DNA of 64,000 nucleotides, from positions 186,001 through 250,000 of IMG/VR virus record IMGVR_UViG_3300031951_000001, one strand, 5' to 3'. Source of the stretch: a virus. Under the pieces are notes generated by a model. It was not told the DNA's origin. It made no database searches and saw only the letters and a list, made by a program, of their open reading frames with translations. The position numbers were made by a program, and so were the translations under genes. Below, in pieces: positions 3,375 to 30,128 of the stretch (position 1 is the first letter of the stretch; every line of letters begins with the position of its first letter).

Positions 3375-3390
3375 ATCAAATAAGTTTTTG

Positions 3391-6300: not shown

Positions 6301-9300
6301 TCCATAAGATTTGGAGAGAGTAGTAGTCCTGGACTTTTTGCCTTGAACGATACAACTTTATTGACCTCAATCAGAATTAACCAAAACAGTCCTCAGGAAA
6401 AAATAGTAATAGTTTCATTATCATCACCATTAATGACTGTTGTTGATTTATATTCATTACCAGGACAACAAGCGGTTTCGGGGGATATAATAGCAACTAA
6501 CAATTTTAATTTATTAGTTTCTACGGTAGATAATACGAACACATATAGATTATTACAATTAGATTTTATAACCGGTAATTTAGAAATAGAAGTACTATAT
6601 AATATAGGAGGAGCAAATATACGAGGTTTGTTCGAATACCAAGGTAACTTGTTCGCAACAACATCCAATGGATTATATCAGATAAACCCTAATTACCCCT
6701 ACCAATTTACCCAAGTTAACGCTACTACAACAAACCAAGATTCATCATCATCTATTTTATTTTGTAACCCAACTTATTTGTTACCACCACCAACACAAAC
6801 ACCGACTCCGACTCAAACACAAACGAATACCCCATCTAGATTACCTTTGGGTGAATTATGTAGATGTCATTATATAACTAACTATGAGAACAAACCTATC
6901 ACATTTACAGCAACAACTTGTGATTCTTCAATACCCCAAACTTATACGCTACCCGCTAATACAAGTTATCCTCCATCATGCTTCAAATTAGGTTCAGTAT
7001 ATAGTTTTAATGCTCAAGTAACAATCACATATTCTATAACACCTTGTGTATTTTGTAATGGTAAATATGTTTGTAACTCCGTATTGTGTCCTACACCTAC
7101 ACCAACTCCTACTAAAACTAGTACACCTACACCAACGTCACCATGTCAACCTCCCCAAGTTGGGGTTCAAACTTTTACCCAAGCTTGGTCAGTAAATAAC
7201 ACCTGTGTTGCCGCAGAGTTAGGTTATTATTTATTTACAACCGGTACAACTGAAGAGGCATGTCAGTCATTTGTTGGGTTCGCTGAAACTCCAGAAGGAA
7301 GTCAATATTGCCCTTCTTTAGGTACTAACACAATAACTCCATCAACCCAACAAAAAACTTTTGGTGTTTATCCTTATCCTGTAGAGATAGGAAGTAGACT
7401 TTATTCTACAGTCCCAACGTCATGTAACTGTCCATCTTTTTGGTTTAATGGGTGGGGCGGTCCTAATAATGACCCTGGCGCTCCTTTTTTGTTTCTTTCT
7501 AATGGCCCATATAAAGCTTGGTATAATGACGGGGTCATTGTAAACGGTGATAATACGTCTGTAAAAATAGCCACGATATCAGGATGTACCGTGATTGATA
7601 TAGAAATTTGTGAAGTGGTGGGATTCAATGTAAATATAATTGCGTCACCAGGTTCTGTCGATATGATATATAACTTTACGTCAACTCAACCTGTTAAATC
7701 CGCAGTTACTATTAATTTTACAAACATACTTCAAACATATACCGGAGACTCAATCTTTATCACCACAGGACTTACTTTAAATAGTGGTGAAACATCAACA
7801 TTTGTAACAGTTTCAAGAGATGTCGATTTTGATAATCTTACCTTAGGTTATTCTACTATAGATTTTTCAGTGACCTCTAATTTATACATTAATCCTGAAT
7901 TAATATATTTTAATTTCTCAATACCAACAATACCAACACCATCAAACAAATGTTACTGCTATGAATTAACAAACACGAGAACAGATGTAACCGCAATAGT
8001 CAAATATAGAACTTGCGAGAATGAAATAATTACAGATTATTTGAGCCCCCTTGAAACAATAAATGATTGTATAAGATTTAATTCAATTTCAGCTAGCTCA
8101 ATAGTCGATATTACTCAAATATCAGTTTGCGGTCCTCCTGATTATAGTTGCGTAACACCAAATGTACCATGTTATTGTTATAAATTAACTTATGATAATT
8201 CAGGTTATTTAGGTGCGATTCATTATATTGATTGTGCGGGTGAAAATCAAAGTATAACAAATACAACTCAATCATTATATGAAATTTGTGCCAGAGAAAT
8301 AACCGGAACTTTTAAATACAAGGCAGACCAATTAGGGGAATGTACCTCAACCACTCAATGTTCTCAATGTTGTACAACCAGTAAAGTTTTAGTTTTAACA
8401 AATGATTTCCCGAATGGTTCTCCTGGACCTACAGGGGTGGCCATCTATAACCCATCGAATGGTACATCAACTTTGATGAGTTTAACTTTAACAGGGTTAC
8501 CATATTCTCTTACTCACATTTACGATAACACCACAAACACAGGAAGAATGTGGATTGCTTTTGATGCCCCTGTACGTATAGAAGAATACACGCTTGACGC
8601 AAACTACAATCCTTCTTTTGATAGATATATTTTCATATCAGGAAATGAGTTTGAGATTGGAGAGTCGATAACTTATCTAAATTCAAATACTTTATTAAGT
8701 ACTAGACGGGGAACAAACCCAAGAAGAGTTGTTACAATAGATATATCTACACCAAATATTGACATCACCGTACCTCTAGTTAATACAATTTACACTATAC
8801 CATTAATTACTACTAATGCCGACGACATTACAAGTTTATTAGTGACCACTAATAATAGACTTATTGGTACTAGATATAGTGGAACATATACACAGAACGG
8901 TAGTTCAAATACAATTTTCCAAATTGACATGAACACAAATCAGCTCGAATATTTGGCGACATGGCCTGATGTTCCTTGGGAAGGCTGGTGGGACGGGATA
9001 TTCATAAACTGTAACAAATATTATAGGTTTGTTAATAATCAAGTTTCATTAAATCAATTATGGACATCCTCAACAAATTCTAATGGTATACCTACATATA
9101 GTTTAGTATTTAATAACAATAATTCATTATCAAACATATGGGACACATCTTCAAACCCTATTTGTAACACTTTTAATTTTAACCCTAACCAAATTTTATT
9201 AACACCCACACCTACTTTAACCCCAACAATAACTAAAACACCTACTAAAACACCTACCCCTACCGTAACCAAAACAAAAACTCCAACAGTTACTCCAACA

Positions 9301-12300
9301 TCAACTGATTATAAATCCGATTGTGCTTGTTATACTATAACTAACACTAGTCCATATAATTCTATTCCGATATTTTATTTTTATCGTAGATGTAAAACAA
9401 ACACACTAACGGTGGGTGTTGTTTATGGTAACACAACGTTTAGTGATTGTTATGTTCCTGGTTCGGTAACCGCATTCAACAACAATCCTAATTTAATTAT
9501 TACTTTGGGCGCGGAATGCAGTGATTGCAGCCAAGGATTTACATGTAATCCATGCCCATCTAAGACCCCAACTAAAACGCCTACCAACACTAAAACCCCA
9601 AGTAACACACCGACCAAGTCATTAACCCCAACCAAAACACCCACACCAACAATAACACCAACCGATTATCCTTATTCGGCGGACTGTAAGGTTTATTCTT
9701 TCAGTTTAATAACAGGTACTTTATATGGGTATGGGGTTGAGTCGGGGGACATAATCTATGAAATGGTATTACCAGTTCTAGGTGTTCCGACAAATATTGC
9801 AATATCTAATGTAAGTAATTTATTGTTTATATATTTTTCTCAAACTAATTTATTAATAACTTTTCAGTTTGATTATATTACAAATCAAATTATAGATGGG
9901 TCATTAACAACGTATGATATACCCGAACCAATTTTTAATCCAATAGAACAAAATCCTTATCAGAGTATAACTTCTATGGATAATGGACAAGGAGTATTTT
10001 TTACTTCACAAGGTTATAATCAAGAAAATTTAGAAACTTATTCTTTATTAACTTATGAATTAACCGGTACAATTACTTATTTATCCGATTTCCCCAATGG
10101 GTTATCTTCAAAAACAATAATTAGGGGTTCAAATAATTTAATTTTTGCATTGGTTGTAGAACAAAATTCATCCGATTGTGCAATACAACAATGGTATTGT
10201 GACGGGACCTTTGCTAACACGACTCTTCTTTATTCCTTTACATTACCATTATCGTATACGAATGGTACCTCTATATTCATTTATGATGGTGAATTTTATA
10301 TAGTTTCACAACAGTCATCACCTAATGGACCTCATATAGTATATACCGTTGACCCATACCAACCACACACATTGACTGAGGTTTCACAATTCACAATAGA
10401 ATTTGGGTATATAAATGATAGTGAATCTTTCGCTAATTGCAACCAGTTTGAATTTTACCAGTATCCTGACACTCCAACGTTAACTCCTACCCCAACATTA
10501 ACTAAAACTCCCACCCCAACAAGAACACAGACATCTACACAATTAACACCAACACCAACATCAACCAATTTGACTCAAACACCAACGGCAACAAATTTAA
10601 CCCCAACACCAACCCCTAATTGTTTTTGTACGAGCTTTAGAAATACTGTTAATTACGATGTAATTATTACTTTCAATACTTGTGATAAAAAAACAAAATC
10701 AAAATTATTAACACCTGATGGTACTCAAGGAAGTACATTTACAACTTGTGTCACGGATTACGTTGAGGATATTAGAATCAATGTAGTGTCGAATGGCCCA
10801 TGTGTTAGTGAGAGTTGCGGTAGCCCAACACCTACCCCCACAGTTACAAATACACAGACTCCGACAGTTACTTCATCTACAGGATTTATAAATGAGACTC
10901 CGACAGTAACCCCAACTAATACCGAAACCCCAACAATTACACCAACTAATACCGAAACCCCAACAATTACACCAACTAATAGTTCCACTCCTACAATGAC
11001 CTCAACTAATATTACCCCAACCCCAACTATAAGTTCAACACCATCACCAATAATCGAGACTTCAATTCTAATATCCGCAGAATATAAACCAGTCCCTAAT
11101 GGTGTTAATTATAATTTAGTTTTCAAATATAATTTTGTATCCAACACATTACAACCACTAATATCCCAGTCAGGTGAATCAATTCAAGGAATGTTATCAA
11201 CCGGTTTGGCTCACTCATATGATTTGAATACTAATACAGGATACGTTTGGACGAAGTCACCTAATTCATCACAAATAAATGAATATTCAATAATAAATTC
11301 AGATTATAATACATTATTTATAAGAACAATTACCTTGACTGGCTCATCATATGGTAAAGGTTTAACTTATATAAATGACACTACATTAATTAGTACGAGA
11401 AAAATAGGCGCTGAACAATGGGTTATTGAAATAAATATTGACCCGTCATTATCGAGCCCTATTGAGACTTTGAAATTTCAAGTACCGTTCAATCAGTCGG
11501 ATGATTATAGTGACTTAATGTTTACAAGTACAGGTAAATTTATATGGACAAACAATGGTCCATTAGGGTTCAATGTTGAGCAGTACATTTACGATACGGG
11601 GGAACTTAATTTTAGAGCACCTGCTTGTTGTACCCCAACCGCACTATGGCAATATAATGGGAATATTTATTCTTCTCAGTCGGGGGCAAATATGAGAATA
11701 AGATATGACTTAACAACCGCCGAAAAGACATTCATTTGTCCCCCAATCGGATGTGGAGAAACATCATGTGAAGACCCACTTAGTTGTATTTGTTCGGGAC
11801 CCTGTACGGTTGATTTTATATCTTTCGGAGGTTCTTCATTAGTGGAAGATAACAATGCCGAATTTGTGCCAAATATTGACCCAATTATTATTAATTTAAC
11901 AACCACTTTTGAGGAGGGTTCTATACAAATAACTTATAACATGGTTTCTAATAATCCTGTTATAGAAGCGATTAGAGTTAATTTTACAAATGTAATCGGT
12001 ACCCAGCTTGATTCTTGGTGGGCGGGAGAGCCAATAACTATTGATACTGGGGTTACAATATATTCAGGACAAACTTCAGGTTCTACTTTAGTCACACTTG
12101 AAGATAGTATTTATGATTTAGATAAAACAAGTTATTTTACTAATATCTCGATATACCCTCCTTATTTGAGTGGTATAACTACAATTGTGGAGACCAATGT
12201 TTTCCCAACCCCAACATCTACCGTAACATCAACAATAACCCCAACACCATCTATCACACCTAGTATAACCCCAACTAATACCCCCATATTCCCTCAAAAT

Positions 12301-14505
12301 ATTGAATTAATCTTGAGCACAAGTCTTGTTTATTATGTTGATTCATTCGAAATTATTTACAATTTGGTATCGAATTTACCACTAACTTATTATTTTGATT
12401 TGTTCTTTACAAATACCTTGGGTACAACAATTTATGGACCATTCCCAATTGAAACTGGAGTGTCAATAAACGTTGGTGAAGTTAGTGGAACAACATCAAT
12501 AATATTTGAAATACCCCCAAGTGTTTTAGATAGAACAAGTACCTTTAGTGGATTTACTTACGACCCATATTTTTATAGCGGAACGACCCAATTAAATGTT
12601 AATACGATGTTCCCAACCCCAACCCCAACAGTAACTATAACTCAAACCCCTCAATTTGACATAACTTCAACACCAACAAGAAGCGTAACCCCAACAAGAA
12701 CTCAAACTCCAACTCAATTGGCTTGTTCGGCAACCACTTCAATTATTAATACAAACACAGCAATAGTATTATCAAGAAAGAGTGATTTGGTATATAGTCA
12801 GCAAGGAACATTGTTCTATCCTATAACATTCACTTTAAGTGGTACTAGTCCAGTATACGATGCGACATCGACAACTGTACCGGTATGGGATACATCAAAT
12901 GTTAATAACGGTCCATTAAATAGAACTGGAGTTTGGACAAACTCAGGGCAACCTGTTGATATATGGATTGGAGATACATTCTGTTTTACAAGTGCAACAG
13001 ATAACAAGAGATATTACATAGGTATTGGGGCGGATAATGACTTTAGAATCCGACTCGACGGAGTACAGATTGTAAATTCTAGTATTGGTCCGTATAATAA
13101 TACAAATATACCATTCTTGTGGTGGCACGTTTATCCTATAACTGTTAATTCAGGAGCGCATACAGTTGAGGTCTATGGTTTAAATGACAACTCAATAGGT
13201 TCATTTGGATGTGAGATTTATGATAACACTCTATCCCAATTAACCGCAGCAACTTCAGTAAGTGACCTTAATATAATTTACAGTACAAGTGCATTAACAG
13301 CGGCTACTATAGTTCAGAGTATGGCGGGAGTTTATTTATCAAGCGGGTATACTTGTCCTTCAGGTTATGAATTAGACGTGTGTAAAAACTATTGTATTAG
13401 TTATGCTAATTGTCCATCACCAACTCCTACAAATACGCCATCTAATACACCAACAAAGAGTATAACACCAACTATAAGTTTAACACCGTCAATTACCCCT
13501 ACAATAAGTTTAACACCGTCAATTACCCCTACAATAAGTTTGACGCCATCACCAACCGCGTCACCATCACCACTCATTTGTCCATATCAAGTTGGAACTA
13601 AAGGATTTGGTTCTCCTATCTATAGGATAGGTTACAATGATTATACTAATTACATTTACGTGGTTACCACTGGTGGCACGGTTGTATTAGATAGTTCGTA
13701 CTTAACTATTGATACTTATCCAAATTCATTAAGTGGTGGAAGTGTAACTTATGCTAGTATGACATTTGCGCAAAGTACTTATAAGTATGTTTATGTTGGA
13801 CATGATGGGGATTTAAAGTATGTTGATTACTATGATATAACTAACCTTACTTCAGGTATAATATCCACCACTATAGAACCAACTGAGATAGATGTAGACA
13901 GAACCAATTCTTTTATAGGAATGATAGGGGTTAATGATGAATATAAACAAATAAACATTTCAACTCAATTAGTTAACTATACTGTTAATGTTAGTGCAAC
14001 CACTAATGGTGATATCGCTTGGTCCAGACTTAATGACACGTTTTGGATTGTTTCTACTGGAGACACGATTGTGTATATTGACCCAACGGCCAAAGATATA
14101 GTTGGTACAGATACTATTCCATCAGGAGGTTATAGTGGATATGGTAAACGATTACTTTATGACAATACTAATTCTTATACGTATTTACTTGTTGATAGTC
14201 AAAGATTATTTATATATGACGCCGTAGGTTCGGCAACATCTTATGTAGATTTAACTCCATACAGTGGAACTAATACAAGTATGACAATCGATATAAATAA
14301 TAACAAACTTTATATTCTAAATGTTGATGACAATGTGTTTGGATTAATTAAGATTGACATAACAACACTAACTGATGAAGGATTATCAGTACTTGGGACT
14401 TATAGTGGTAAGTCTAACGGAAGTATACTATATGAGCCAAATAATTCTGAAATTATATTGAGTCTTGAGCCATTTACTAATACGTTCTATATATTCTGTA
14501 CTTAA
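3391..14505 (+). CDS. Giant modular Thr-Pro-rich adhesin / tail fibre-like protein
   Basis: This 3704-aa protein is a mosaic. ATG 3391 is preferred over TTG 3388 because the product then begins MEFVIRK, like its paralogue (MEFFIKK). Residues 1-135 form a domain shared with that paralogue and resembling baseplate-attached BppU-type N-termini. Then follow, in mixed order: four copies of a beta-sandwich module of about 100 aa (near residues 150-250, 1412-1512, 2830-2935 and 2970-3075); seven Cys modules starting CxC; about five beta-propeller-like blocks; a PA14/lectin-like block near 3110-3340; and a YVTN-like propeller at about 3400-3704. Linkers of repeated TPT, TNT and TKT join them. Inferred role: host-surface recognition on the virion. 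No transmembrane segment or clear signal peptide is visible. The exact sugar or protein target cannot be read from the sequence. Confidence 0.65.
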   Translation: MEFVIRKNATLPLLKMQIVKDGRGTYEDFMNFIETSTIYFSMQNSETGVMKINTKFAGYVEKEFIEPNSPPEYYIYYKFTKRETNKVGKYEGQFLLKNEIGTLVLPIREKLNITIKDSNLEDDLDYNECFVGQFQCCVIGPPGPNTPYEFELNANYSPGSVIADYTLTASKPVDATTTVLFENILVTYTGESITISTGITINRGQTTSSVEVVTDGDFSNLTLANYFDNVLITPSTSLTPDSIDIKQSFPPSVLTGDCYCYRFINTQGKPAKLRYTHCNGTPVETSISPNGSYQDCIQTNQYNVSSGVIAGVSQECFGPNYLCFTAGTPCKCYRYNYIGNGAQIGQIRYVDCQNNTISDNSTDSVVELCVSERLGEKYYTHTELDATCTTEADCSFCCSASHNLVLTTGISGEIDENVTKLYRYNTLTGNQTLILTIDPVSSPPYQALDVAHKFSPITNNGKIWISFKGLNSDNLPDQYIEEYDIDSSYNVQYNRRINIPWLNGLREIGHGLSLYNENNLILTLCLFGVNEEFVLLNINNTGDIPDANLIPTGIYSPFEPTQLPNTLDSEGRVNKIVDILITSDSKIVATNYGILANGAVNTILQIDITTNDYETFFYWPDVNNYVQNSYQGIFESCGTFYCFTYSENFNELWSVDTETYELNQVQPYNSNLRVVVGCSSLLVCQTQSFVPDTPCAPDAEGCNIAITGTVHNVSFTYEYTGDVVVYSPQDNTEDSFICYEDCINVYNIEALFCGHGDGTPTPGNPSTHFTVTFNFASEVNDVRIVIWGSGWGGNENFHIMTDQGVPTITSYYSCYSEIIGNTIYSGAEPYPPYKGGGIFNVNSNNDFTSIVISGDGGWAGSFIYLCTDSSLCFDNCTPILLSPLAQITLYNGTNQYSITLPYINGGPFPNPGTSYNYNAIAHTPNKLWISNFLFTSDPTNWYLLEWDLSLCPFSVTYNTRYVQSVDSGVTSIRFGESSSPGLFALNDTTLLTSIRINQNSPQEKIVIVSLSSPLMTVVDLYSLPGQQAVSGDIIATNNFNLLVSTVDNTNTYRLLQLDFITGNLEIEVLYNIGGANIRGLFEYQGNLFATTSNGLYQINPNYPYQFTQVNATTTNQDSSSSILFCNPTYLLPPPTQTPTPTQTQTNTPSRLPLGELCRCHYITNYENKPITFTATTCDSSIPQTYTLPANTSYPPSCFKLGSVYSFNAQVTITYSITPCVFCNGKYVCNSVLCPTPTPTPTKTSTPTPTSPCQPPQVGVQTFTQAWSVNNTCVAAELGYYLFTTGTTEEACQSFVGFAETPEGSQYCPSLGTNTITPSTQQKTFGVYPYPVEIGSRLYSTVPTSCNCPSFWFNGWGGPNNDPGAPFLFLSNGPYKAWYNDGVIVNGDNTSVKIATISGCTVIDIEICEVVGFNVNIIASPGSVDMIYNFTSTQPVKSAVTINFTNILQTYTGDSIFITTGLTLNSGETSTFVTVSRDVDFDNLTLGYSTIDFSVTSNLYINPELIYFNFSIPTIPTPSNKCYCYELTNTRTDVTAIVKYRTCENEIITDYLSPLETINDCIRFNSISASSIVDITQISVCGPPDYSCVTPNVPCYCYKLTYDNSGYLGAIHYIDCAGENQSITNTTQSLYEICAREITGTFKYKADQLGECTSTTQCSQCCTTSKVLVLTNDFPNGSPGPTGVAIYNPSNGTSTLMSLTLTGLPYSLTHIYDNTTNTGRMWIAFDAPVRIEEYTLDANYNPSFDRYIFISGNEFEIGESITYLNSNTLLSTRRGTNPRRVVTIDISTPNIDITVPLVNTIYTIPLITTNADDITSLLVTTNNRLIGTRYSGTYTQNGSSNTIFQIDMNTNQLEYLATWPDVPWEGWWDGIFINCNKYYRFVNNQVSLNQLWTSSTNSNGIPTYSLVFNNNNSLSNIWDTSSNPICNTFNFNPNQILLTPTPTLTPTITKTPTKTPTPTVTKTKTPTVTPTSTDYKSDCACYTITNTSPYNSIPIFYFYRRCKTNTLTVGVVYGNTTFSDCYVPGSVTAFNNNPNLIITLGAECSDCSQGFTCNPCPSKTPTKTPTNTKTPSNTPTKSLTPTKTPTPTITPTDYPYSADCKVYSFSLITGTLYGYGVESGDIIYEMVLPVLGVPTNIAISNVSNLLFIYFSQTNLLITFQFDYITNQIIDGSLTTYDIPEPIFNPIEQNPYQSITSMDNGQGVFFTSQGYNQENLETYSLLTYELTGTITYLSDFPNGLSSKTIIRGSNNLIFALVVEQNSSDCAIQQWYCDGTFANTTLLYSFTLPLSYTNGTSIFIYDGEFYIVSQQSSPNGPHIVYTVDPYQPHTLTEVSQFTIEFGYINDSESFANCNQFEFYQYPDTPTLTPTPTLTKTPTPTRTQTSTQLTPTPTSTNLTQTPTATNLTPTPTPNCFCTSFRNTVNYDVIITFNTCDKKTKSKLLTPDGTQGSTFTTCVTDYVEDIRINVVSNGPCVSESCGSPTPTPTVTNTQTPTVTSSTGFINETPTVTPTNTETPTITPTNTETPTITPTNSSTPTMTSTNITPTPTISSTPSPIIETSILISAEYKPVPNGVNYNLVFKYNFVSNTLQPLISQSGESIQGMLSTGLAHSYDLNTNTGYVWTKSPNSSQINEYSIINSDYNTLFIRTITLTGSSYGKGLTYINDTTLISTRKIGAEQWVIEINIDPSLSSPIETLKFQVPFNQSDDYSDLMFTSTGKFIWTNNGPLGFNVEQYIYDTGELNFRAPACCTPTALWQYNGNIYSSQSGANMRIRYDLTTAEKTFICPPIGCGETSCEDPLSCICSGPCTVDFISFGGSSLVEDNNAEFVPNIDPIIINLTTTFEEGSIQITYNMVSNNPVIEAIRVNFTNVIGTQLDSWWAGEPITIDTGVTIYSGQTSGSTLVTLEDSIYDLDKTSYFTNISIYPPYLSGITTIVETNVFPTPTSTVTSTITPTPSITPSITPTNTPIFPQNIELILSTSLVYYVDSFEIIYNLVSNLPLTYYFDLFFTNTLGTTIYGPFPIETGVSINVGEVSGTTSIIFEIPPSVLDRTSTFSGFTYDPYFYSGTTQLNVNTMFPTPTPTVTITQTPQFDITSTPTRSVTPTRTQTPTQLACSATTSIINTNTAIVLSRKSDLVYSQQGTLFYPITFTLSGTSPVYDATSTTVPVWDTSNVNNGPLNRTGVWTNSGQPVDIWIGDTFCFTSATDNKRYYIGIGADNDFRIRLDGVQIVNSSIGPYNNTNIPFLWWHVYPITVNSGAHTVEVYGLNDNSIGSFGCEIYDNTLSQLTAATSVSDLNIIYSTSALTAATIVQSMAGVYLSSGYTCPSGYELDVCKNYCISYANCPSPTPTNTPSNTPTKSITPTISLTPSITPTISLTPSITPTISLTPSPTASPSPLICPYQVGTKGFGSPIYRIGYNDYTNYIYVVTTGGTVVLDSSYLTIDTYPNSLSGGSVTYASMTFAQSTYKYVYVGHDGDLKYVDYYDITNLTSGIISTTIEPTEIDVDRTNSFIGMIGVNDEYKQINISTQLVNYTVNVSATTNGDIAWSRLNDTFWIVSTGDTIVYIDPTAKDIVGTDTIPSGGYSGYGKRLLYDNTNSYTYLLVDSQRLFIYDAVGSATSYVDLTPYSGTNTSMTIDINNNKLYILNVDDNVFGLIKIDITTLTDEGLSVLGTYSGKSNGSILYEPNNSEIILSLEPFTNTFYIFCT
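10921..10980 (+). repeat. Perfect 2 x 30-bp tandem repeat in a Thr-Pro linker
   Basis: Positions 10921-10950 and 10951-10980 are identical 30-bp units, each encoding ten residues of a Thr-rich linker. Perfect identity at third codon positions indicates a recent duplication. Confidence 0.95.
13474..13533 (+). repeat. Perfect 2 x 30-bp tandem repeat, plus a partial third copy
   Basis: Positions 13474-13503 and 13504-13533 are identical. A third unit begins at 13534 and then diverges. Each unit encodes ten residues (ISLTPSITPT) of the linker before the C-terminal propeller. Confidence 0.95.
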
Positions 14506-14578: not shown

Positions 14579-17500
14579 ATGGAATTTTTCATTAAAAAAG
14601 GCGCGACCCTTCCTTTATTAAAACTTAACATTGTTGACAATGGAAGAAGCGATTATAACAACTTTCTAAATACGTTAGAGTTGTCATCTTTATTCTTTTC
14701 AATGACTAATGTTGAAAACGGTACCCCAAAGATAACAAACAAACCTGCAGGTGTTGGCGGCGAATACCCAAACTATTTTATATACTATCAGTTTCAAAAT
14801 ACCGACACAACAAAAGAGGGTAGATTTGAGGGTGAGTTTGTTATAAAAAATGAGTACGGTAATAATGTTTTAACATTAGGTGAAAAACTTTATGTTAACA
14901 TAACCGAGTCATTTATATTAGATGATTTAGATTACGTTTCATGTTACATAGTTGATTATGCTTGTTGCAGTAATCCTATACCAGTGCCATTACCTCAACC
15001 TTCAAGTACTCCTACTCCTACACCTACTGTAACTGACTCTCAATTATCTCTAACTCTACAAGGATTTATAAATCCAGGGTCAGTTGTTATAGATTATGTT
15101 CTAACATCAAATAGATTATTTTCACAGGAACTTACAATGTCGTTCTCAAATTTACTTGGGGTGATTGTTGGAAGTCCTGTATTAATAACAACCGGTGTAA
15201 CTTTGAGTGTTGGTGAATTTACGGGAACTACCCAAGTAATTCTTCCTGATGATTTTCAAAATTTAAATCGTGAAAGTTTATTTTTTGGTAATACCATAAA
15301 TCTTACAGGTTTAACGTATACGACTTACTATCAAAATTCAGTATTCTTTGCAACACCAACACCCACCCCAACTCCAACACCAACTGAAACAATTGTTTGT
15401 GAATGTTTTGAAATTGTTGCTCCATTAGCGAATGGTTCATATTCTTATATCGATTGTAGTGGAATTGAACAACCAGTTGTTGAATTAGGTATAGGTGAAT
15501 CTTCTAGAGTTTGTGTAGGTAATTCTAAAATAAACGCGTTTGACGGAGCCGAATTCTATGTTGTTGGATTATGTTCAGACTGTCTATTACCGACCCCTAC
15601 CCCCACCCCAACTCAAACTGAGGGTGAGATTTTTATGGGTAATATAATAGAAAATATTAACCTTAATGAAACTTTTACAACGAATGAAGAAGAATTAAAT
15701 AGGATTTTACGCGAAAGACCTAAAAAATTAAATATTGATTTACCATTTAAAGATGGGGTCATAAATGTTAATCTAACTAGACGAAATATTTACGAAAATG
15801 ATTTTAGAATATCAAATGAATTCGGAGAGACACTTTATTCAAAATTAGGAGAACATTATGAAGGTATTATTGTTGGTAGTCAAAATTCTACAGTTTCTTT
15901 AAGCATTACAAGCGAAGGGTTCAGTGGGTCCTTACAAGATGAAGGATTAGTTGTTGATATTAATAACATCAGTGGATTTACTCATCACTGCCAAGAAGTA
16001 TTTGAGGAAACTAAACATGATTGTAATACATACAATATTGATTTTCCCGAATTAGATAACTACATCTCCCCAAACCAAGAAATGTTTAATAACTTTGAGG
16101 GTGAGATTATGGCTAACATTAATTTTGAGAATTTGAATTCTTACGTTACCATGGTTGCCAACAAAAACGTGAGGTATCTCTTGGAGGTTGATTACGATAT
16201 ATATCAATATTTTGGTAATGATTTACAGGCAACTACTAATTACATCACCGCGTTATTTAATTCTATATCCGCTATCCATGCCGCTGAAGGGGTGTCGATA
16301 ACAATGAGTGAGATTAAATTTTGGACTTCGGGCGAGTCTCCATATAGGACTTACGGTCATACAATACCATGCACCGCGAACACAAGTAATCTAGACTGCG
16401 CATTAAAAAATTATAGGCAATATTATAAAAATAATAATTTAACTTTCAATGGAGATGTTAGAATGTTGTTAACAGTCGGATGGCCCAATCCTGTTGGTGG
16501 TAGTGCTAGATATAGCTCGGCGTATACTCCGGGTGTGTGCTCCCCCGATTTTTATAATTGTCTTTTCCATCAGTTAAGACCAACAACTGTCAGTCCTGGT
16601 AGCCCACCTCCTGAAGGATATGTCGATGGAGGTAGTAATTTAAGTGTTTACTACGGAAATGCCAATGGGTGGAATGTAATTGCGGGTGCTCACGAAATTG
16701 GTCATACTCATGGATGTTCTCATACATTCAGTTCGGTTTGGAATTGTAACTACACAATAGGTAGCACAAATGTTGCGGGTACATGTTGTTTAGATTGTTG
16801 TTCAGGTCTTGCAAATTGCGCTTGCGTTGGCGGTACAACTATACAAAACCCAACTAACGGTACATGTATAGCGTCAGGTGCGACAATTATGTCTTATAAT
16901 ACAAGACAACCTATATTCGGACCTCAACCACAACAGAAAATGGTCAATACGATAAATGCGGCACTTTGTTTACAAAATTTTACTACACCAACCCCTACAC
17001 CAACCCCTACAAGAACAAGTACAACACCAACTCCAACTCCTACAAGAAACACACCAACTCCAACTAAAACAAGTAATTGGGATTGTGCTGCGTCTTTCAA
17101 TATAAATATTCCAAATACAACCTCAGTAACTATAAGTGGAGTAACATTCGTAAAGTCGGTATCTCAAGTGATGTCAACTCAAAGTTTTGCGATTATACCT
17201 TCGTCATGCATAGGTTCAAGTAATATTAGTGGAGTTAACATATTAACTTCTCTAACTGATACTTCGGGTAACTACACCATGAGTTCCTCGACTTTATTGA
17301 CAAGTATCGCATTATCGTTTGGGGCTTTACAAGCAACTGATGTGATTACGTTTAGTGCAAATAATGGTACTACGTTTGTCGGAATTTGCCAAGGGTGTTG
17401 TGGTCAAAATGGCGCCGCCAATCAAATTGTTGGTACAACTTTATGTAGCCAGCTCGGAAACGTAGATGGAGGTGCATTCCGAGTCATTGTTAATTCAACA

Positions 17501-18820
17501 GAACCGTTCAATCAACTAAATGTAAAAATAAGCAGTCCTTTAAATAACGGGTGGGGTAAGTTTTTAAAAATTAATAATTTTAGAACTTTAGGAACCTCAA
17601 TCACCCCAACTAAAACACCAACAAGAACTGCAACACCAACAGTTACAAAAACCGCCAATTTTGTTGACGTAACTCCAACATCGACACCTACTGTAACGTT
17701 GACTAAAACCCTTACATCCACCCCAACAAGAACATTAACACCTACAAGGACATCCACTCAAACCCCAACAGTAAGTAAAACAAGTAATTTAATTGTTGAA
17801 AGTCCGACCTCTACCCCAACAAGAACATTAACACCTACTCCGACAAGAACCCTCACACCAACTAAATCAACTAATATTACATTAACCCTCACACCAACGA
17901 GAACAAAAACCCCTACTCCGACTAAATCGTCTAATACATCATTAACACCTACTCCGACAAGAACAAAAACCCCAACACCGACAAGAACAAAAACCCCAAC
18001 ACCGACTAAATCGTCTAATACATCATTAACCCCAACACCGACAAGAACAAAAACCCCAACACCGAGTACTTCAATATCGATTTCATTGTGTGATATTTTA
18101 AGTGTTGCAAATACAACGGGTATTATATACAAATATGATTACGTATCGAATACTGTTACCGAATTGCCGGTCAGCGGTAGACAAGTATTACCGAGTGATA
18201 TTGCCGTTTCAGAAAATTATTTATTTACGATATCTTCTAACACTATTAGAAGGTTCCAAATAACTAGAAACCCATGGACCGCAACTAACCCAACCGATTT
18301 CATATATCCGTCAGGTACATTCGCAACAAGTAACAACGGTTTATTTGCATTGAGCGACTCAACACTTATATCATTTAACACTTTAAATCAAATTATATCT
18401 GTTAATTTAACCAATTTGACAACAACAGTTTTATTTAGTTTACCTGCGGGTAGGTCAATTGCGGGAGATATAATATACACAACAAACAATAGATATATAA
18501 TTGTCAACCGAAGTATATCCACATCTACCACATTTGTTTCTCAATTTGATTCATCGGGTAACCCAATGGGTGAAATGAGTATGGCAAGTATTACATTAGT
18601 TAACGGAAGTTTATTTATTTATAATAGTGAATTATATATTCAAAGGCAGTCCACCCCTCCACATAATTATAAATTAACATTCCCATCAACAATAAGTCCT
18701 GTGTTAAGTACCGCCACAGTAACATCACTAGGATTTGCTCAACCACAAAACTGTATAAGTTTTGATTTTCCTGTTTCACCAACACCTACTAAAACAGTCA
18801 CCCCGACAAAAATACTATAG
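14579..18820 (+). CDS. Modular adhesin with embedded metzincin (M12B-like) metalloprotease
   Basis: The 1413-aa protein begins with the same docking-like domain as the preceding adhesin (1-135). A beta-sandwich module (about 155-257) and a Cys module starting CECF (about 272-338) follow. Residues about 350-495 look like a reprolysin-type propeptide, and about 508-800 like the protease. Zinc motif HEIGHTHGCSH at 705-715 fits HExxHxxGxxH exactly (ligands H705, H709, H715; catalytic E706), and IMSYN near 770 provides the metzincin Met-turn. Cys-rich segments surround the site. A domain at about 834-1007, long Thr-Pro linkers and a propeller-like block near 1170-1400 complete it. Known: metzincins are zinc endopeptidases, usually secreted with a propeptide. 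Inferred: the virion carries a protease that clears host surface protein or matures the fibre. The catalytic set looks intact. Confidence 0.75.
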   Translation: MEFFIKKGATLPLLKLNIVDNGRSDYNNFLNTLELSSLFFSMTNVENGTPKITNKPAGVGGEYPNYFIYYQFQNTDTTKEGRFEGEFVIKNEYGNNVLTLGEKLYVNITESFILDDLDYVSCYIVDYACCSNPIPVPLPQPSSTPTPTPTVTDSQLSLTLQGFINPGSVVIDYVLTSNRLFSQELTMSFSNLLGVIVGSPVLITTGVTLSVGEFTGTTQVILPDDFQNLNRESLFFGNTINLTGLTYTTYYQNSVFFATPTPTPTPTPTETIVCECFEIVAPLANGSYSYIDCSGIEQPVVELGIGESSRVCVGNSKINAFDGAEFYVVGLCSDCLLPTPTPTPTQTEGEIFMGNIIENINLNETFTTNEEELNRILRERPKKLNIDLPFKDGVINVNLTRRNIYENDFRISNEFGETLYSKLGEHYEGIIVGSQNSTVSLSITSEGFSGSLQDEGLVVDINNISGFTHHCQEVFEETKHDCNTYNIDFPELDNYISPNQEMFNNFEGEIMANINFENLNSYVTMVANKNVRYLLEVDYDIYQYFGNDLQATTNYITALFNSISAIHAAEGVSITMSEIKFWTSGESPYRTYGHTIPCTANTSNLDCALKNYRQYYKNNNLTFNGDVRMLLTVGWPNPVGGSARYSSAYTPGVCSPDFYNCLFHQLRPTTVSPGSPPPEGYVDGGSNLSVYYGNANGWNVIAGAHEIGHTHGCSHTFSSVWNCNYTIGSTNVAGTCCLDCCSGLANCACVGGTTIQNPTNGTCIASGATIMSYNTRQPIFGPQPQQKMVNTINAALCLQNFTTPTPTPTPTRTSTTPTPTPTRNTPTPTKTSNWDCAASFNINIPNTTSVTISGVTFVKSVSQVMSTQSFAIIPSSCIGSSNISGVNILTSLTDTSGNYTMSSSTLLTSIALSFGALQATDVITFSANNGTTFVGICQGCCGQNGAANQIVGTTLCSQLGNVDGGAFRVIVNSTEPFNQLNVKISSPLNNGWGKFLKINNFRTLGTSITPTKTPTRTATPTVTKTANFVDVTPTSTPTVTLTKTLTSTPTRTLTPTRTSTQTPTVSKTSNLIVESPTSTPTRTLTPTPTRTLTPTKSTNITLTLTPTRTKTPTPTKSSNTSLTPTPTRTKTPTPTRTKTPTPTKSSNTSLTPTPTRTKTPTPSTSISISLCDILSVANTTGIIYKYDYVSNTVTELPVSGRQVLPSDIAVSENYLFTISSNTIRRFQITRNPWTATNPTDFIYPSGTFATSNNGLFALSDSTLISFNTLNQIISVNLTNLTTTVLFSLPAGRSIAGDIIYTTNNRYIIVNRSISTSTTFVSQFDSSGNPMGEMSMASITLVNGSLFIYNSELYIQRQSTPPHNYKLTFPSTISPVLSTATVTSLGFAQPQNCISFDFPVSPTPTKTVTPTKIL
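17918..18060 (+). repeat. Imperfect long tandem repeat in a Thr-Pro-Ser linker
   Basis: A block starting at 17918 (CCGACTAAATCGTCTAAT) recurs at 18002, each followed by copies of a CCGACAAGAACAAAAACC segment. The copies differ at only a few bases. The repeat codes for linker between a beta domain and the C-terminal propeller. Confidence 0.85.
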
Positions 18821-24932: not shown

Positions 24933-26054
24933 TTAGATAACGTAAATTTGTCTTGGCATTGCTGTGAGTTTCTTAATCTTGTTAAGATTTTCAGCAATCA
25001 ACGCCTCTCTCTCCATTACTTTTTCAGGTTTAAGCCTTGTAAGACGACCTTCGGCACCTGTTAATTCTTCAATTAATTTTGTTTTTTCATCTTTGGCTTC
25101 GGTTGCTAAAGATTGATAATCCATTGTTAATTCAGAATCAGGTGTTTTGATGTTACCACTAAACTTACCACGAATTCTAGATAAAGTTTCTTTGGCGTAA
25201 GCAAAGAACCAACGACGAACCCAAATTTGAGCCGGATTATTTAAATCAACCCAATCAATTTTATTAAATGGTACATCAGAAGGTAATTTAATAATATCAG
25301 GATTATCCTTTAAACATTTATCTCTATCAGGACCACCAGCATCATAATACCAATACCATACCTTACCTCTCATCAATGTGGAGTTACCAAAGTCAAATTT
25401 ACCACCAGGTGTATTCATTAAGTGAATTGCCTTTTTACCTTCAGGTAAAGCGGTAACTCTATAAGTTAATTCACCGGCTATAATCCTTCTCTGAATATTA
25501 ATTTCCTGCATTCTTAATAACATATCGAATGCGGGCATCATAAAATATGAACCTGACATACCCATTTGTGCGAATCCACCAGGACCCCCAAAACCACCAC
25601 CACCTAAACCTCCAAAAGTCCAAGGGTCAAATAATAAGTTATTTAATTCTGATGGTGTAAACCACAACAATTCGTTTAGTTCACGACCTGCGGGTATTTC
25701 ATATATTTGTTGGTTTGGTACAAGTTGTATATAATCTTTTTGTAAAACCCAATCACCACCGGCCTGAAGACCAACTATTTTAGAATATGCGTAAGTGTAT
25801 CTTTCCTCAAAACCTTGGCTTTTAGTGATGAAAGCTTTAGCCAAAGATTGGGTATCTAAATTTAGATTATACAATGAAGTCCATTGACTCTCAATCAACC
25901 AATCTTGGATGTATTGTGAATAATCGTCAATAGATAGTTGTAAAAGTGAGTCGAGTTGCTCGTCCTCTAATTCAACACTACGTAACGGAGCTCCTAACAA
26001 GTGTTTTAATCTTGTATATAACTCACTTCTTTCTGGTTCTGCGATTACGGCCAT
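24933..26054 (-). CDS. 13: Neck protein, gp13-like
   Basis: The N-terminus of this 373-aa protein (RLKHLLGAPLRSVELEDEQL, then a run of helices) has the LGAP...VE...Q layout I recall for T4 gp13, a head-completion neck protein that closes the portal vertex. T4 gp13 is shorter (309 aa). A Gly-rich insertion GGLGGGGFGGPGG near 148-160 and a conserved-looking IWVRRWFFAYAKETLSRIRG near 280-300 are visible. A TATTTATA motif sits 14 nt before the ATG. Other neck-like genes lie about 3 kb away on the plus strand, which supports a neck role, although being on the opposite strand from the other tail genes is odd. The gp13 assignment is from memory of the family pattern. Confidence 0.55.
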   Translation of the reverse strand: MAVIAEPERSELYTRLKHLLGAPLRSVELEDEQLDSLLQLSIDDYSQYIQDWLIESQWTSLYNLNLDTQSLAKAFITKSQGFEERYTYAYSKIVGLQAGGDWVLQKDYIQLVPNQQIYEIPAGRELNELLWFTPSELNNLLFDPWTFGGLGGGGFGGPGGFAQMGMSGSYFMMPAFDMLLRMQEINIQRRIIAGELTYRVTALPEGKKAIHLMNTPGGKFDFGNSTLMRGKVWYWYYDAGGPDRDKCLKDNPDIIKLPSDVPFNKIDWVDLNNPAQIWVRRWFFAYAKETLSRIRGKFSGNIKTPDSELTMDYQSLATEAKDEKTKLIEELTGAEGRLTRLKPEKVMEREALIAENLNKIKKLTAMPRQIYVI

Positions 26055-26068
26055 ATTGGTGTTTTATA

Positions 26069-26076
26069 TATAAATA
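26069..26076 (-). promoter_or_regulatory. TATTTATA motif (minus strand) before the gp13-like gene
   Basis: Read on the minus strand this is TATTTATA, ending 14 nt before the ATG of the gp13-like gene. It lies just past the stop codon of the SOD fusion gene. The orientation matches that at plus-strand genes relative to transcription. Confidence 0.5.
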
Positions 26077-27618
26077 TCAACCCAATGTATAAATTAAATT
26101 GTTCTTATCGAATGTGTAATTACCGTCAACAATTTTTGTATCCGAGTTATCAAATACTAAAATACCATCAGGACCACCCTCAAAAATAATCCAATCAGTC
26201 GAATAAACTTTTACTTGTCCTGTATCTAACATTGAAACCAAATTTTCATCGACAACTTTAACCGTTTTATATGGTTTTATTTGAGCGGTATATTCTTCAC
26301 CATCAATAATGATGATACAATCAACACCCATTATCATGTCAGATTTGGCACCTAACTCGCCAATCTTTTTAACATTTTTGTCTCCGAATTTTTCCTTGAG
26401 TTTCTTAACTACTAAATCTTCTCTGGCGTCACCGGCTTTGTTGGTCGAACCTAATATTGCCATGACATTTTGAAATGTGCCTGACTTTGATGAAAAAATT
26501 CTGTCTTTATATTCATCGAGTATTCTAACAAATTTTTTGGTCTCACTAACTTGTTGAGCCGGTGGTAATCCGATTAATTGTAATTCGGGTCTTCTTTCAT
26601 ATCTTAATACTGAATTCAAGTCGTGATATAAAACACAGAACGCATTGTAGTTGGTATTCAGTTTGTTAATTACCGAACGTCCTCTGTTTTCTAAATCAAA
26701 AATACCCGACATAGAACCTTCGGCGTATTCCCCATTCTCATACCAATTATCAGGAAACACTGACTTTAAAATTGACTCGATACCATAACGAAATGTGTTC
26801 TTAACTGCGGGATTGATATTAAAAATCATTCTTATCTCCTCAACTTTTTCTCTCGAACATCTTTCTGACTTACCTTCAGTGATAAGTTTTTTCATAACGG
26901 TGCTCTCGTTGATTTTTGTCTTGAGTTTCATTTCGTATAGTTTATTAACAAATTCCCAATTCACAACTTTCCAAAAGTTTGAAATGTATTCGTCTCGTTT
27001 GTTTCTGTATTTCAAATAATATGCGTGCTCCCAAAGGTCTAATCCAAGTATCGGATATCCACCACCCTTAACAACATTCATTAAGGGGTTGTCTTGGTTT
27101 GGGGTTGTTAAAATCTTTAACGTGTTTCTTTTTGTAAGAACCAACCAAACCCAACCTGAACCAAAACGTTCTTTTGCTTTTTCCTCAAATTGTTTTTTGA
27201 ATTCAACATAACTACCAAAATCACTTTTTATTTTATCTAAAATCTTACCATTAGCTTTTTGTGTTTTTGGCGATAACATCTTCCAAAACAATGCGTGGTT
27301 AAATGCCCCACCGGCATTGTCTCTGACTGTTTTATTGAATCGACTAATTGATTTAACAATTTGTTCTAATTCTAAATCTCCGTAATCTTTTTTTGATAAA
27401 GCTTTGTTTAACTTTTCAACATAACCTTTGTAGTGTTTGTTGTAATGTACATCCATCGTTTCAGAATCGATGAATGATTTTAAGGATGAATAGGCGTAAG
27501 GTAATTTTTCAATACCTATGTTTTTCATTTCGGTGAGTAAAGTTTGACTCGACTCGACCTTTTCTTCTTTCAAAATTGATTTGGTTAAGGTGTCTATTTT
27601 TTTTTCTATGTTCTTCAT
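26077..27618 (-). CDS. Mn-type superoxide dismutase fused to PD-(D/E)XK nuclease-like domain
   Basis: The 513-aa protein has an N-terminal leader (SILKEEKVESSQTLLTE, to about 30), a complete Fe/Mn superoxide dismutase domain (about 38-232) and a C-terminal half of different origin. Metal ligands are H58, H108, D194 and H198; H62, Y66, W196 and E197 match active-site neighbours. NAGGAFNH (101-108) and PNQD (173-176) are the Gly and Gln arrangement of Mn enzymes rather than Fe enzymes. At about 396-450 GDAREDLV, SDMIMGVD and AQIK fit the E...D...(E/Q)xK pattern of PD-(D/E)XK nucleases. MKKLITEGK at 242-250 looks like the leader of a formerly separate second protein. Known: SOD converts superoxide to peroxide and oxygen. 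Inferred: a packaged or early infection protein. A fusion of this kind is unfamiliar to me. Confidence 0.8.
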   Translation of the reverse strand: MKNIEKKIDTLTKSILKEEKVESSQTLLTEMKNIGIEKLPYAYSSLKSFIDSETMDVHYNKHYKGYVEKLNKALSKKDYGDLELEQIVKSISRFNKTVRDNAGGAFNHALFWKMLSPKTQKANGKILDKIKSDFGSYVEFKKQFEEKAKERFGSGWVWLVLTKRNTLKILTTPNQDNPLMNVVKGGGYPILGLDLWEHAYYLKYRNKRDEYISNFWKVVNWEFVNKLYEMKLKTKINESTVMKKLITEGKSERCSREKVEEIRMIFNINPAVKNTFRYGIESILKSVFPDNWYENGEYAEGSMSGIFDLENRGRSVINKLNTNYNAFCVLYHDLNSVLRYERRPELQLIGLPPAQQVSETKKFVRILDEYKDRIFSSKSGTFQNVMAILGSTNKAGDAREDLVVKKLKEKFGDKNVKKIGELGAKSDMIMGVDCIIIIDGEEYTAQIKPYKTVKVVDENLVSMLDTGQVKVYSTDWIIFEGGPDGILVFDNSDTKIVDGNYTFDKNNLIYTLG

Positions 27619-27634: not shown

Positions 27635-27642
27635 TATAAATA
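27635..27642 (-). promoter_or_regulatory. TATTTATA motif (minus strand) before the SOD fusion gene
   Basis: On the minus strand it reads TATTTATAG, 16 nt before the ATG at 27618. It sits in the 33-nt gap behind the SNF2 helicase gene, so the SOD fusion could have its own promoter. Confidence 0.5.
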
Positions 27643-27651
27643 AGCCGAAGG

Positions 27652-29466
27652 TTAGAATTGTCTTACAGAATTTATCTTATTCATTATTTCCTCAACTATG
27701 TCACCGGAATTTATATTATCACCCATCACGGTTTCAATATTTTTCTTCTTGTTATTAACCATATCGTAGATTATTCCTTCGATTGTATTTTCAAATATCG
27801 GATAATAAACGGAAACTGAATTTTTTTGACCGTATCTATAAGCTCTATCTTCAGCTTGTGATAAATCACCTGGCACGAATGCCAAGTCGTTTATGATTAC
27901 CGCTTCTGCGGCGGTTAGGGTAATACCAACACCTGCGGCTTTTAAGTTACCAACGAATACTTTTATCTTTTCGTTGTCTTGAAATTGGTCTACCGCATAT
28001 TGTCTTTGAGCATTACTACAACTACCATCTAAAAATACAGCTTGTTTTCCGAAGTGACTGTAAATTTTATGTAATGTATCTGTAAAGTTTGTGAATATAA
28101 TGACTTTCTTTCCTTGTTCTAAAATATTTTCAGCAATCTCGATTGTGTTATTAACCTTTTCATCGGCAATGACCTGTCTAACTTTCATTAACTTACTAAA
28201 TTGTACGGTCAATGACCCTGATTCTTCTTTTTTGTTGTCATACCAATCATAATAATCACCCATCAATGCTTCGTATTGTTTTGACCTAACACGAAGATAA
28301 ACTGGTGTAATAATCTTGTCAGGTAAATCCAACACTTCTGTCTTCAATCTACGTAAAACTTGTCTTGCTGTTCTATCTCTCAACTCCTCCAAGTTTGATG
28401 CTCCTGTCACATTCCAAACCTTCCTATTACCCGCTCTGAATTGATACCCCTGACAATATCTAATGGCAAATGCCATCCAATTTTGAGCTACAGGACTATC
28501 AATAAGATGTAATAGATTAAAATAATTCATTGGTCGTGATGTCATCGGAGTACCAGTTAATAACCACAACTTATCAACATTCTTACAGATGTGATTAACA
28601 ATCTTTGTTCTTTGAGCTTGAGCATTCTGAACATAGTGGGCTTCATCCAAAATTATCAAATCAAAGTTTGATTGTTTGATTAATGAAGTTTCTTTGTCCT
28701 TTGGGTCATGAAAGTTTTTCAATATGTCATAATTCACAATAACAAAATCATGCTCGGTCGAATATGATTTACCTTCAGAAATAAACACACTTCGGTCTGT
28801 ATAATTCTGAATCTCACGAAGCCAATTGACCTTTAACGTTGCCGGACAGACAATTAAAATCTTTTTGGCTCCCGTTTCTAAAGCCGCAATAATTGTTGAT
28901 GTTGTTTTACCCAAACCCATGTCATCGGCAAGAATAAATCTTTTACTACCTGCCAATTTTTCTATTGCTTCTTTTTGATGTTCGAGTGGAGGACGATGAG
29001 AATACTTTGAATAGTTGATATCGACTTTCTCCATTCTGTGTGACTTAATCAACGCCCCTTTCGGTAACCAAAAATCGTGAATTGTCTCACCTGAAAAAAA
29101 CTTACCCCAAACGTGATAAGCTTTCTCCTTCTCAACCAACAATTTTTCTATCCAACATTCTGTGGGTATCTCCGTATATAATTTTTCATCGGCAATTTTC
29201 TTTGCGAAGTATGGGTCCAAATCAACCCATTTTTTGGCGACCTTTGGTGATGTTTCATGAAAGGTTGTGATATATTCTGATTGAGCTCGGGTGGGGTAAA
29301 ACTTTTTATTATGTTCTTTATTGTATTTTAATTTCAGGATATAGTTGTTTGCCCCCGAATAATTTTCGAGAATGCCCAAAGCTCGTTGCTCAATCAAATT
29401 TGTCGAGGTTGAATTCAACACATTATAAAAATAATAAACAATTCGATATTTATCAATATGGGACAA
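27652..29466 (-). CDS. SNF2-family DNA helicase/translocase
   Basis: The open frame codes for up to 604 aa. It holds Walker A in LADDMGLGKTTST (about 179-191), DEAH (about 274-277), LLTGTP (motif III, about 296-301) and a C-terminal helicase lobe with QAEDRAYRYGQK (motif VI, about 550). This is the SNF2/HARP pattern. In T4-like phages UvsW and similar proteins remodel forks and recombination intermediates; I infer that role here. The start is uncertain. The frame opens with TTG at 29466, inside the divergent neck gene that starts at 29458, and no ATG occurs until deep in the protein. Internal GTG or TTG codons near 29415-29420 are more plausible starts and would remove the overlap. Confidence 0.9.
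   Translation of the reverse strand: MSHIDKYRIVYYFYNVLNSTSTNLIEQRALGILENYSGANNYILKLKYNKEHNKKFYPTRAQSEYITTFHETSPKVAKKWVDLDPYFAKKIADEKLYTEIPTECWIEKLLVEKEKAYHVWGKFFSGETIHDFWLPKGALIKSHRMEKVDINYSKYSHRPPLEHQKEAIEKLAGSKRFILADDMGLGKTTSTIIAALETGAKKILIVCPATLKVNWLREIQNYTDRSVFISEGKSYSTEHDFVIVNYDILKNFHDPKDKETSLIKQSNFDLIILDEAHYVQNAQAQRTKIVNHICKNVDKLWLLTGTPMTSRPMNYFNLLHLIDSPVAQNWMAFAIRYCQGYQFRAGNRKVWNVTGASNLEELRDRTARQVLRRLKTEVLDLPDKIITPVYLRVRSKQYEALMGDYYDWYDNKKEESGSLTVQFSKLMKVRQVIADEKVNNTIEIAENILEQGKKVIIFTNFTDTLHKIYSHFGKQAVFLDGSCSNAQRQYAVDQFQDNEKIKVFVGNLKAAGVGITLTAAEAVIINDLAFVPGDLSQAEDRAYRYGQKNSVSVYYPIFENTIEGIIYDMVNNKKKNIETVMGDNINSGDIVEEIMNKINSVRQF
29447..29454 (+). promoter_or_regulatory. TATTTATC motif before the neck gene, short spacing
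   Basis: TATTTATC, a one-base variant, ends only 3 nt before ATG 29458 and lies inside the 5' part of the divergent helicase frame. If it is a promoter, the transcript would be leaderless or nearly so. Confidence 0.4.
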
Positions 29467-29973
29467 CCGAGAGTACCAATATCAAGGATAGGAAAATTTT
29501 TTGGAGTTGAGGATTTCGACTTGGATATCTCTATGGGTGAGGAATGGTTACACGGTGATATGAATTTCACACTTGTTCTATACCGTGTGGATAGACAAAA
29601 AACCAAAACCGATGATGTATATGGAGAGGCTTTAATGGATGGAATAAAGTTTTTACCACCCGTAGAATTCAAAGCATTTGTACAAATCATGGCCCCTGAA
29701 AACAAATATTTAGGTAACTCAAAGATTGACCAAGTTGAGCCAGGTAACATTAGAATATCGGTGTATCAAAAACAGTTAGATGAACTTGAGATTGATATTA
29801 ATTACGGTGATTACATTGGTTATTATGAAACTGAAAATCGTGTTAGATATTATGTGGTCAACAATGATGGTCGTGTAATTTCTGATAATAAACATACATA
29901 CGCTGGGTACAAGCCATTCTATAGAACAATTATGGCGTCTGCCGTTGTAGATAACGAATTTAGAGGATTATGA
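29458..29973 (+). CDS. Neck / head-completion protein, possibly gp14-like
   Basis: The 171-aa protein begins MGQPRVPISRIGKFFG and includes RISVYQKQLDELEIDINYGD and NKHTYAGYKPFYRTIMAS. I recall these patterns from neck or head-completion proteins of T4-like phages of Bacteroidota and marine hosts, but cannot prove identity. T4 gp14 is longer (256 aa). It lies directly upstream, with overlapping stop and start codons, of a zinc-ribbon gene and a gp15-like tail terminator gene, then the sheath, which supports a head-tail joining role. No membrane segment or enzyme motif is visible. Confidence 0.5.
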   Translation: MGQPRVPISRIGKFFGVEDFDLDISMGEEWLHGDMNFTLVLYRVDRQKTKTDDVYGEALMDGIKFLPPVEFKAFVQIMAPENKYLGNSKIDQVEPGNIRISVYQKQLDELEIDINYGDYIGYYETENRVRYYVVNNDGRVISDNKHTYAGYKPFYRTIMASAVVDNEFRGL

Positions 29974-30128
29974 AAATAAAATTAACCGAAGACCAAATTA
30001 GAAGAATTTTAGAAATTGTTGATTCTGAAAAAGTTAAGTGTGATAAATGTGATTGGGAATGGAACTTATCAGATGGTGGGGATGGCCCATTTATTTGTCA
30101 TAAGTGTTGGCACGACAACGGAAAATAA
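29970..30128 (+). CDS. 52-aa zinc-ribbon protein
   Basis: ATG 29970 overlaps the previous stop (ATGA), and its TAA overlaps the next ATG (TAATG), so the gene is translationally coupled on both sides. The product begins MKIKLTEDQIRRILEIV, then has CDKCDWEW and CHKCWHDNGK. The two CxxC pairs, 18 residues apart, predict a zinc ribbon. The N-terminal KLTEDQIRRILE is an amphipathic helix like the leaders on other proteins here. A structural zinc protein at the neck or a small regulator is possible; the function is not known. Confidence 0.75.
   Translation: MKIKLTEDQIRRILEIVDSEKVKCDKCDWEWNLSDGGDGPFICHKCWHDNGK

Follow-up and report, generated by a model that had tools for sequence, protein, structure and literature searches.

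The 64,000-nt stretch of DNA that we analysed (the window) belongs to IMG/VR record G000, a 322-kb virus contig of which one further 20-kb stretch, around the head genes, was also covered. Between a SNF2-type helicase gene and a neck gene, the window carries a gene for a protein of 513 aa, referred to here as the precursor gene, at exactly the bounds given in the original prediction but on the minus strand. The neck gene lies 22 nt downstream of it on the same strand. The features of this region are as follows:

27652-29466, minus strand: SNF2-type helicase gene, upstream; a conserved neighbour of the cargo locus
27635-27642, minus strand: TATTTATA upstream of the precursor gene
26077-27618, minus strand: whole precursor gene, 513 aa, ATG start
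27529-27618, minus strand: leader, residues 1-30, variable, ending in a conserved L-x-E (residues 28-30; predicted cut between 30 and 31; hxE in 52/52)
26941-27510, minus strand: superoxide dismutase (SOD) module, residues 37-226, with ligands H58, H108, D194 and H198 (Pfam, PDB, alignment)
26869-26922, minus strand: linker, residues 233-250, with two conserved hxE in the alignment (236-238, predicted cut between 238 and 239; 246-248, predicted cut between 248 and 249)
26080-26871, minus strand: PD-(D/E)XK-fold module, residues 250-513 (invariant residues, AlphaFold2 model, PDB fold matches)
26275-26421, minus strand: predicted active-site stretch, E400 ... D427, D433 ... Q446-x-K448, invariant in 67-69 sequences
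26069-26076, minus strand: TATTTATA upstream of the neck gene
24933-26054, minus strand: neck / head-tail adaptor-type gene, downstream (phrog_211)

Judged by its sequence, the region spanning residues 37-226 is a complete Mn-type SOD. Both Pfam domains of the family were found above cut-off, Sod_Fe_N at residues 37-116 (E=8.7e-22) and Sod_Fe_C at residues 123-226 (E=1.9e-40), and the closest PDB match was the S. aureus SodA (E=1.2e-61, residues 36-229). The four metal ligands were present in 28/28 aligned homologues, as were H62, Y66 and the N174-Q175-D176 triplet.

For residues 250-513 we could not detect a significant match in Pfam, PHROG, the known defence families or the Hjc / I-Ssp6803I sequences, and an assignment of this module to a known defence, Pfam or PHROG family was therefore rejected. 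The missing match is not defining, because the PD-(D/E)XK superfamily is known for such a lack. The AlphaFold2 model of the module, built from 67 aligned relatives, was confident (pLDDT 93.5, pTM 0.86), and all of the 21 top PDB fold matches were PD-(D/E)XK enzymes, namely I-Ssp6803I and Hjc-type Holliday junction resolvases, at probabilities up to 0.99 and a best E of 5.8e-3, with none at or below 1e-3 and hence short of the usual E cut-off. The putative catalytic residues E400, D427, D433, Q446 and K448 remained invariant even in a paralogue that is ~20% identical. Together, the model and these residues support a PD-(D/E)XK-type domain that is predicted to be a nuclease. It shares the core with its closest folds, and differs from them in an extra N-terminal helical half with a conserved GRSxxNKxNTNY; many PD-(D/E)XK members carry (D/E)-x-K, whereas the module here has Q-x-K. 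Phages CBB and GAP32 have virion proteins that the module matched weakly in a tblastn search (E 6-7); these matches were dismissed as chance, and no counterpart of the G-x-D ... Q-x-K set was seen in the CBB protein. The original prediction had proposed an Mn-type SOD with four metal ligands and, at residues 390-450, a PD-(D/E)XK domain with E400, D433 and K448; Pfam, the fold matches and the invariant residues support both domains and their catalytic residues.

The fusion is neither an assembly join nor a one-off. A search of IMG/VR matched at least 579 relatives, and full-length fusions, with both domains in one chain, were fetched from at least 80 contigs of many metagenomes, at 53-100% identity; the recurrence of the same fusion in these contigs rules out the assembly join. 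A cellular origin was also rejected, since none of 15 loci from an alignment scan of genome_contigs was identified as a fusion. The loci comprised SODs of bacteria plus a single one from a Fluviicola MAG contig, matched essentially over the SOD region only. The SOD matches in annotated phage records were all unfused, and the nuclease module had no significant match there.

The leader and the linker are strongly variable, apart from L/I-x-E triplets at residues 28-30, 236-238 and 246-248. The hxE motif directly preceded the SOD in all 52 representatives, whatever their architecture, and in 39-41 SOD-nuclease representatives it was found at the three positions in 95%, 100% and 97%, respectively, while the neighbouring residues varied. 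After within-row shuffling, no column exceeded 27% hxE. Four proteins encoded nearby at these loci served as a control and contained 15 invariant hxE in ~2260 residues, of which 3 occurred in a poorly conserved context. The motif also follows the modules: no hxE lies behind the SOD where the SOD ends the protein (L308, L327), and one is found there in nearly all proteins in which another module follows. In the triple-module protein of L181/L294, the linker is repeated between the two nuclease-like modules (KLTE↓STRKNRLLLE↓GSNF; arrows, predicted cuts).

The protein begins with a candidate propeptide ending in L/I-x-E, one of the features expected of a T4-type head protein processed by gp21. 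The gp21 protease cleaves after L/I-X-E, and mature T4 head proteins lose propeptides of 7 to 65 residues (PMC9026906). The residue following the linker sites is mostly S and G/A. Three points run counter to this reading: L/I-x-E is a short and common motif, the pre-SOD site is usually followed by M (or A) rather than by the A/G/S of the other sites and the capsid protein, and, as regards packaging, metallopeptidase variants have the leader internally and not at the N-terminus.

A matching protease is encoded by the same genome. In record G000, a prohead protease of the T4 gp21 type (Peptidase_S77, E 1.5e-25) is encoded at 117.2 kb, L086:11086-11811, and a gp23-type capsid protein (MCP, E 9.6e-65) has LINE↓A at the position where T4 gp23 is cleaved; this sequence is the same in 77/77 aligned capsid proteins. 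Of 12 records of the phage group, 8 contain the S77 protease, among them all three that are longer than 300 kb. Between the prohead protease and scaffold genes lies a paralogue of the nuclease module:

L086:12104-13060 (G000:C1:118104-119060): nuclease-module paralogue, 318 aa, with GxD..VQVK

The two proteins are distantly related (BLAST E 4e-6 across most of the module), this being the independent evidence, since a profile match of E=1e-47 is inflated by a near-identical row within the profile. The paralogue has an ISE↓G of its own, in the start MKITISE↓GQ. Relatives of it occur in L168-L180, L187 and L196, and in record G005 a second copy adjoins the protease. The original prediction had taken MKKLITEGK at residue 242 for an old leader of a second protein; this remark holds, as LITE↓G is one of the two nearly invariant L/I-x-E sites of the linker and the head-cluster paralogue begins in a similar way. 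An N-terminal motif, MK[IL]xx[TS]E-x-Q, recurs on unrelated proteins, its loose form fitting 33 of 1332 distinct ORFs (e.g., window 29970-30128), and could be another short propeptide or tag.

The position of the gene fits a late-gene context, as far as its surroundings indicate. TATTTATA occurs 24 nt upstream of the precursor start and precedes, in addition, the terminase, portal, scaffold, tail tube and neck genes; many structural genes in the window and L086 have it 10-65 nt ahead of them, in sense orientation (e.g., L086 13115-13122). An exact copy stands before 100 of 152 distinct orthologues, and none was found before the SSB, UvsX, DnaB, NrdA and NrdB genes. A copy 62 nt before the DNA polymerase gene means that the element is not strictly confined to structural genes. 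In this phage group it likely serves as a late promoter or start element, a label derived by analogy from T4's TATAAATA. Also before the DNA polymerase gene, the window contains two long ORFs, of 3705 aa (3388-14505) and 1413 aa (14579-18820), with related N-termini (MEFxIxKxATLPLLK).

The composition of the precursor varies between relatives. We fetched 80 loci via the neck gene, not dereplicated, and classed the ORF between the SNF2-type helicase and neck genes: SOD-nuclease was found in 28/80, the nuclease alone in ~14/80, the SOD alone in 8/80, the SOD joined to one or two further modules, of up to 916 aa, in ~13/80, and an HExxH metallopeptidase-like module ahead of the SOD in 12/80. In some relatives the SOD is joined to other nuclease-like modules, and in L304, L316 and L338 the modules form separate ORFs. 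In L309 the SNF2 ORF is followed directly by the neck gene, which shows that the locus can lack the precursor entirely. Exactly one SOD was present in 21 of the 23 records searched, and none was detected in two nuclease-only genomes (318 kb and 308 kb). Mapped onto a tree of the neck protein, the 12 classes of architecture require 13 changes, against a minimum of 11; they appear to be mostly inherited, with some well-supported exceptions such as L312 (nuclease only), which falls inside an SOD-nuclease clade.

Several of the exchanged modules have few or no matches in the databases. A ~130-aa HEWVH (zincin-like) module, located before the leader and SOD in L296 (4882-5271) and also in L308, L326 and L334, ends in MYE↓G or MYE↓S and had no match in PHROG or PDB and one weak match in Synechococcus phage S-SRM01. 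Further C-terminal cargo modules in L296 (5992-6975), L285 (5878-6975) and L334 (5869-6963) are without database matches, and D...(S/E)xK-like patterns in them suggest additional PD-(D/E)XK-like nucleases.

The modules, the conserved sites, the protease, the gp23-type capsid gene, the shared upstream element, the neck neighbour and the module exchange can all be read directly from the genomes. On this basis we consider it probable that the gene, in a T4-like jumbo phage, encodes a modular precursor of head cargo, which is packaged, cut by a protease and delivered along with the DNA; we infer both enzyme activities, as well as cleavage, packaging and injection, from these observations. The precursor would be made late in infection and brought into the prohead by its leader, where the gp21-like protease (Peptidase_S77) would cut after L/I-x-E before the SOD, between the SOD and the nuclease, and where the nuclease begins. 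A free SOD and a free PD-(D/E)XK nuclease would then reside in the capsid and enter the next host together with the DNA, the SOD blunting superoxide at entry, a role proposed by analogy with chlorovirus PBCV-1, and the nuclease acting on host or competing DNA. The nuclease may serve in host DNA attack, superinfection exclusion or the resolution of branched DNA.

The SOD and the nuclease might instead form a stable bifunctional enzyme, joined throughout in the infected cell, with the leader and linker as plain spacers. Retention of the fusion over the wide divergence of the IMG/VR contigs would be expected of such an enzyme, but in relatives its modules are exchanged, missing or found in separate ORFs, its linker varies except at the two hxE sites, and both leader and linker were modelled at low confidence (whole-protein pTM 0.59, part of which the shallow alignment may explain). 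Because the modules separate in relatives and protease-type sites lie at their boundaries, a shared precursor and shared delivery are likelier, and we regard the bifunctional enzyme as unlikely. The same observation bears on the interpretation in the original prediction, in which the two activities act together, for example as a nuclease delivered when infection triggers an oxidative burst, or one domain protects the other: the idea of delivery is retained, whereas joint action as one fusion and protection of one domain by the other are disfavoured by modules that come apart.

Given that its closest folds are Hjc-type resolvases, the nuclease could also be the phage's Holliday junction resolvase for packaging or recombination, active in the cell or at head filling, with the SOD riding along. 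RuvC was not found in six records and endonuclease VII was seen in G000 only below cut-off, both in favour of this explanation, and REase-fold proteins of other jumbo phages have been proposed as resolvases (PMC7824862). An essential resolvase should not be optional, however, and the module is missing at the locus in the SOD-only phages and L309 and from the whole of record G008 (229 kb, which may be incomplete), while the module types found at the locus are diverse; for this reason we doubt a resolvase role and consider it improbable. An equally improbable explanation is that of a late intracellular protein that is never packaged, whose SOD guards the cell or the new virions and whose nuclease degrades leftover host DNA, the hxE triplets being incidental or the sites of another protease. 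The late-type context would be expected equally under it, but the conservation of the sites, the matching protease and the head-cluster paralogue would be left unexplained.

The packaged precursor that we favour has its nearest counterpart in the internal head proteins of T4 (IPI-III, Alt), with which it shares a predicted N-terminal propeptide ending in L/I-x-E, an S77 protease and gp23-type capsid protein in the genome, a probably late expression and a predicted delivery with the DNA. It differs from them in that a single precursor combines several enzymes separated by sites, and in its cargo, SOD and PD-(D/E)XK modules here as opposed to ADP-ribosyltransferase or anti-restriction proteins in T4. 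The likeness of the ~30-aa leader to T4 targeting sequences lies in its place and its L/I-x-E end, and sequence kinship is not claimed. With T4 leader fusions, enzymes foreign to the phage, EcoRI and staphylococcal nuclease among them, are brought into heads and into cells (PMC9026906).

A chain of distinct modules that relatives exchange is also characteristic of the polyvalent proteins of phages and conjugative elements, multidomain and modular proteins that are believed to travel with the DNA and to be split into units (PMC5512222). Their processing is ascribed to an embedded zincin-like peptidase (PMC5512222), whereas here it is ascribed to the prohead protease; Pfam detected no embedded peptidase domain in the 513-aa protein of the window, and an HExxH module occurs in some relatives only. 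The word "superoxide" is absent from the polyvalent-protein paper (PMC5512222). Virion-borne SODs are known from the chlorovirus PBCV-1 and from giant viruses (PMC7019647, PMC9405923). The Cu/Zn SOD of PBCV-1 (A245R) is made late, is packaged in the virion and is associated with reduced superoxide in infected cells (PMC7019647); it differs from the SOD described here in being an unrelated Cu/Zn enzyme, a separate protein and that of a eukaryotic virus. Stand-alone Fe/Mn SODs of Vibrio phage 2.275.O and PA5oct-like Pseudomonas phages are phage-borne like the SOD here and ~28-30% identical to it; in the one record inspected, that of 2.275.O, the SOD is unfused and in another genomic setting.

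Signal peptides in L086 hint loosely at Bacteroidota as hosts, as does a Flavobacterium phage that ranks among the closer relatives by capsid protein; a Microcystis phage is equally near. The Fluviicola MAG contig (L344:5980-6705) encodes an unfused SOD that is 46% identical to the phage SOD and starts with MNLKIVDILRE↓GLKD; the contig may belong to a phage and have been binned with a Bacteroidota genome, and may thereby hint at the host.

We know of no phage with several unrelated enzymes in one precursor split by prohead-protease sites, and of no tailed phage shown to package a superoxide dismutase; a literature search for a packaged SOD encoded by a phage, or for a cargo polyprotein that can be cleaved, found nothing. 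The broader proposal, to which we give an even chance, is that a large clade of uncultured T4-like jumbo phages matures a multi-enzyme cargo polyprotein in the head by means of the prohead protease, with interchangeable SOD, PD-(D/E)XK-type and metallopeptidase-like modules freed and injected as an antioxidant and DNA-attack kit. If this is true, capsid maturation would also serve as cargo release, an antioxidant enzyme would be added to the injected proteins of phages, and the locus would provide a natural example of the multi-enzyme loading of a T4-like head, with the module swaps at this one locus amounting to a readable list of the functions that are useful to phages at entry.
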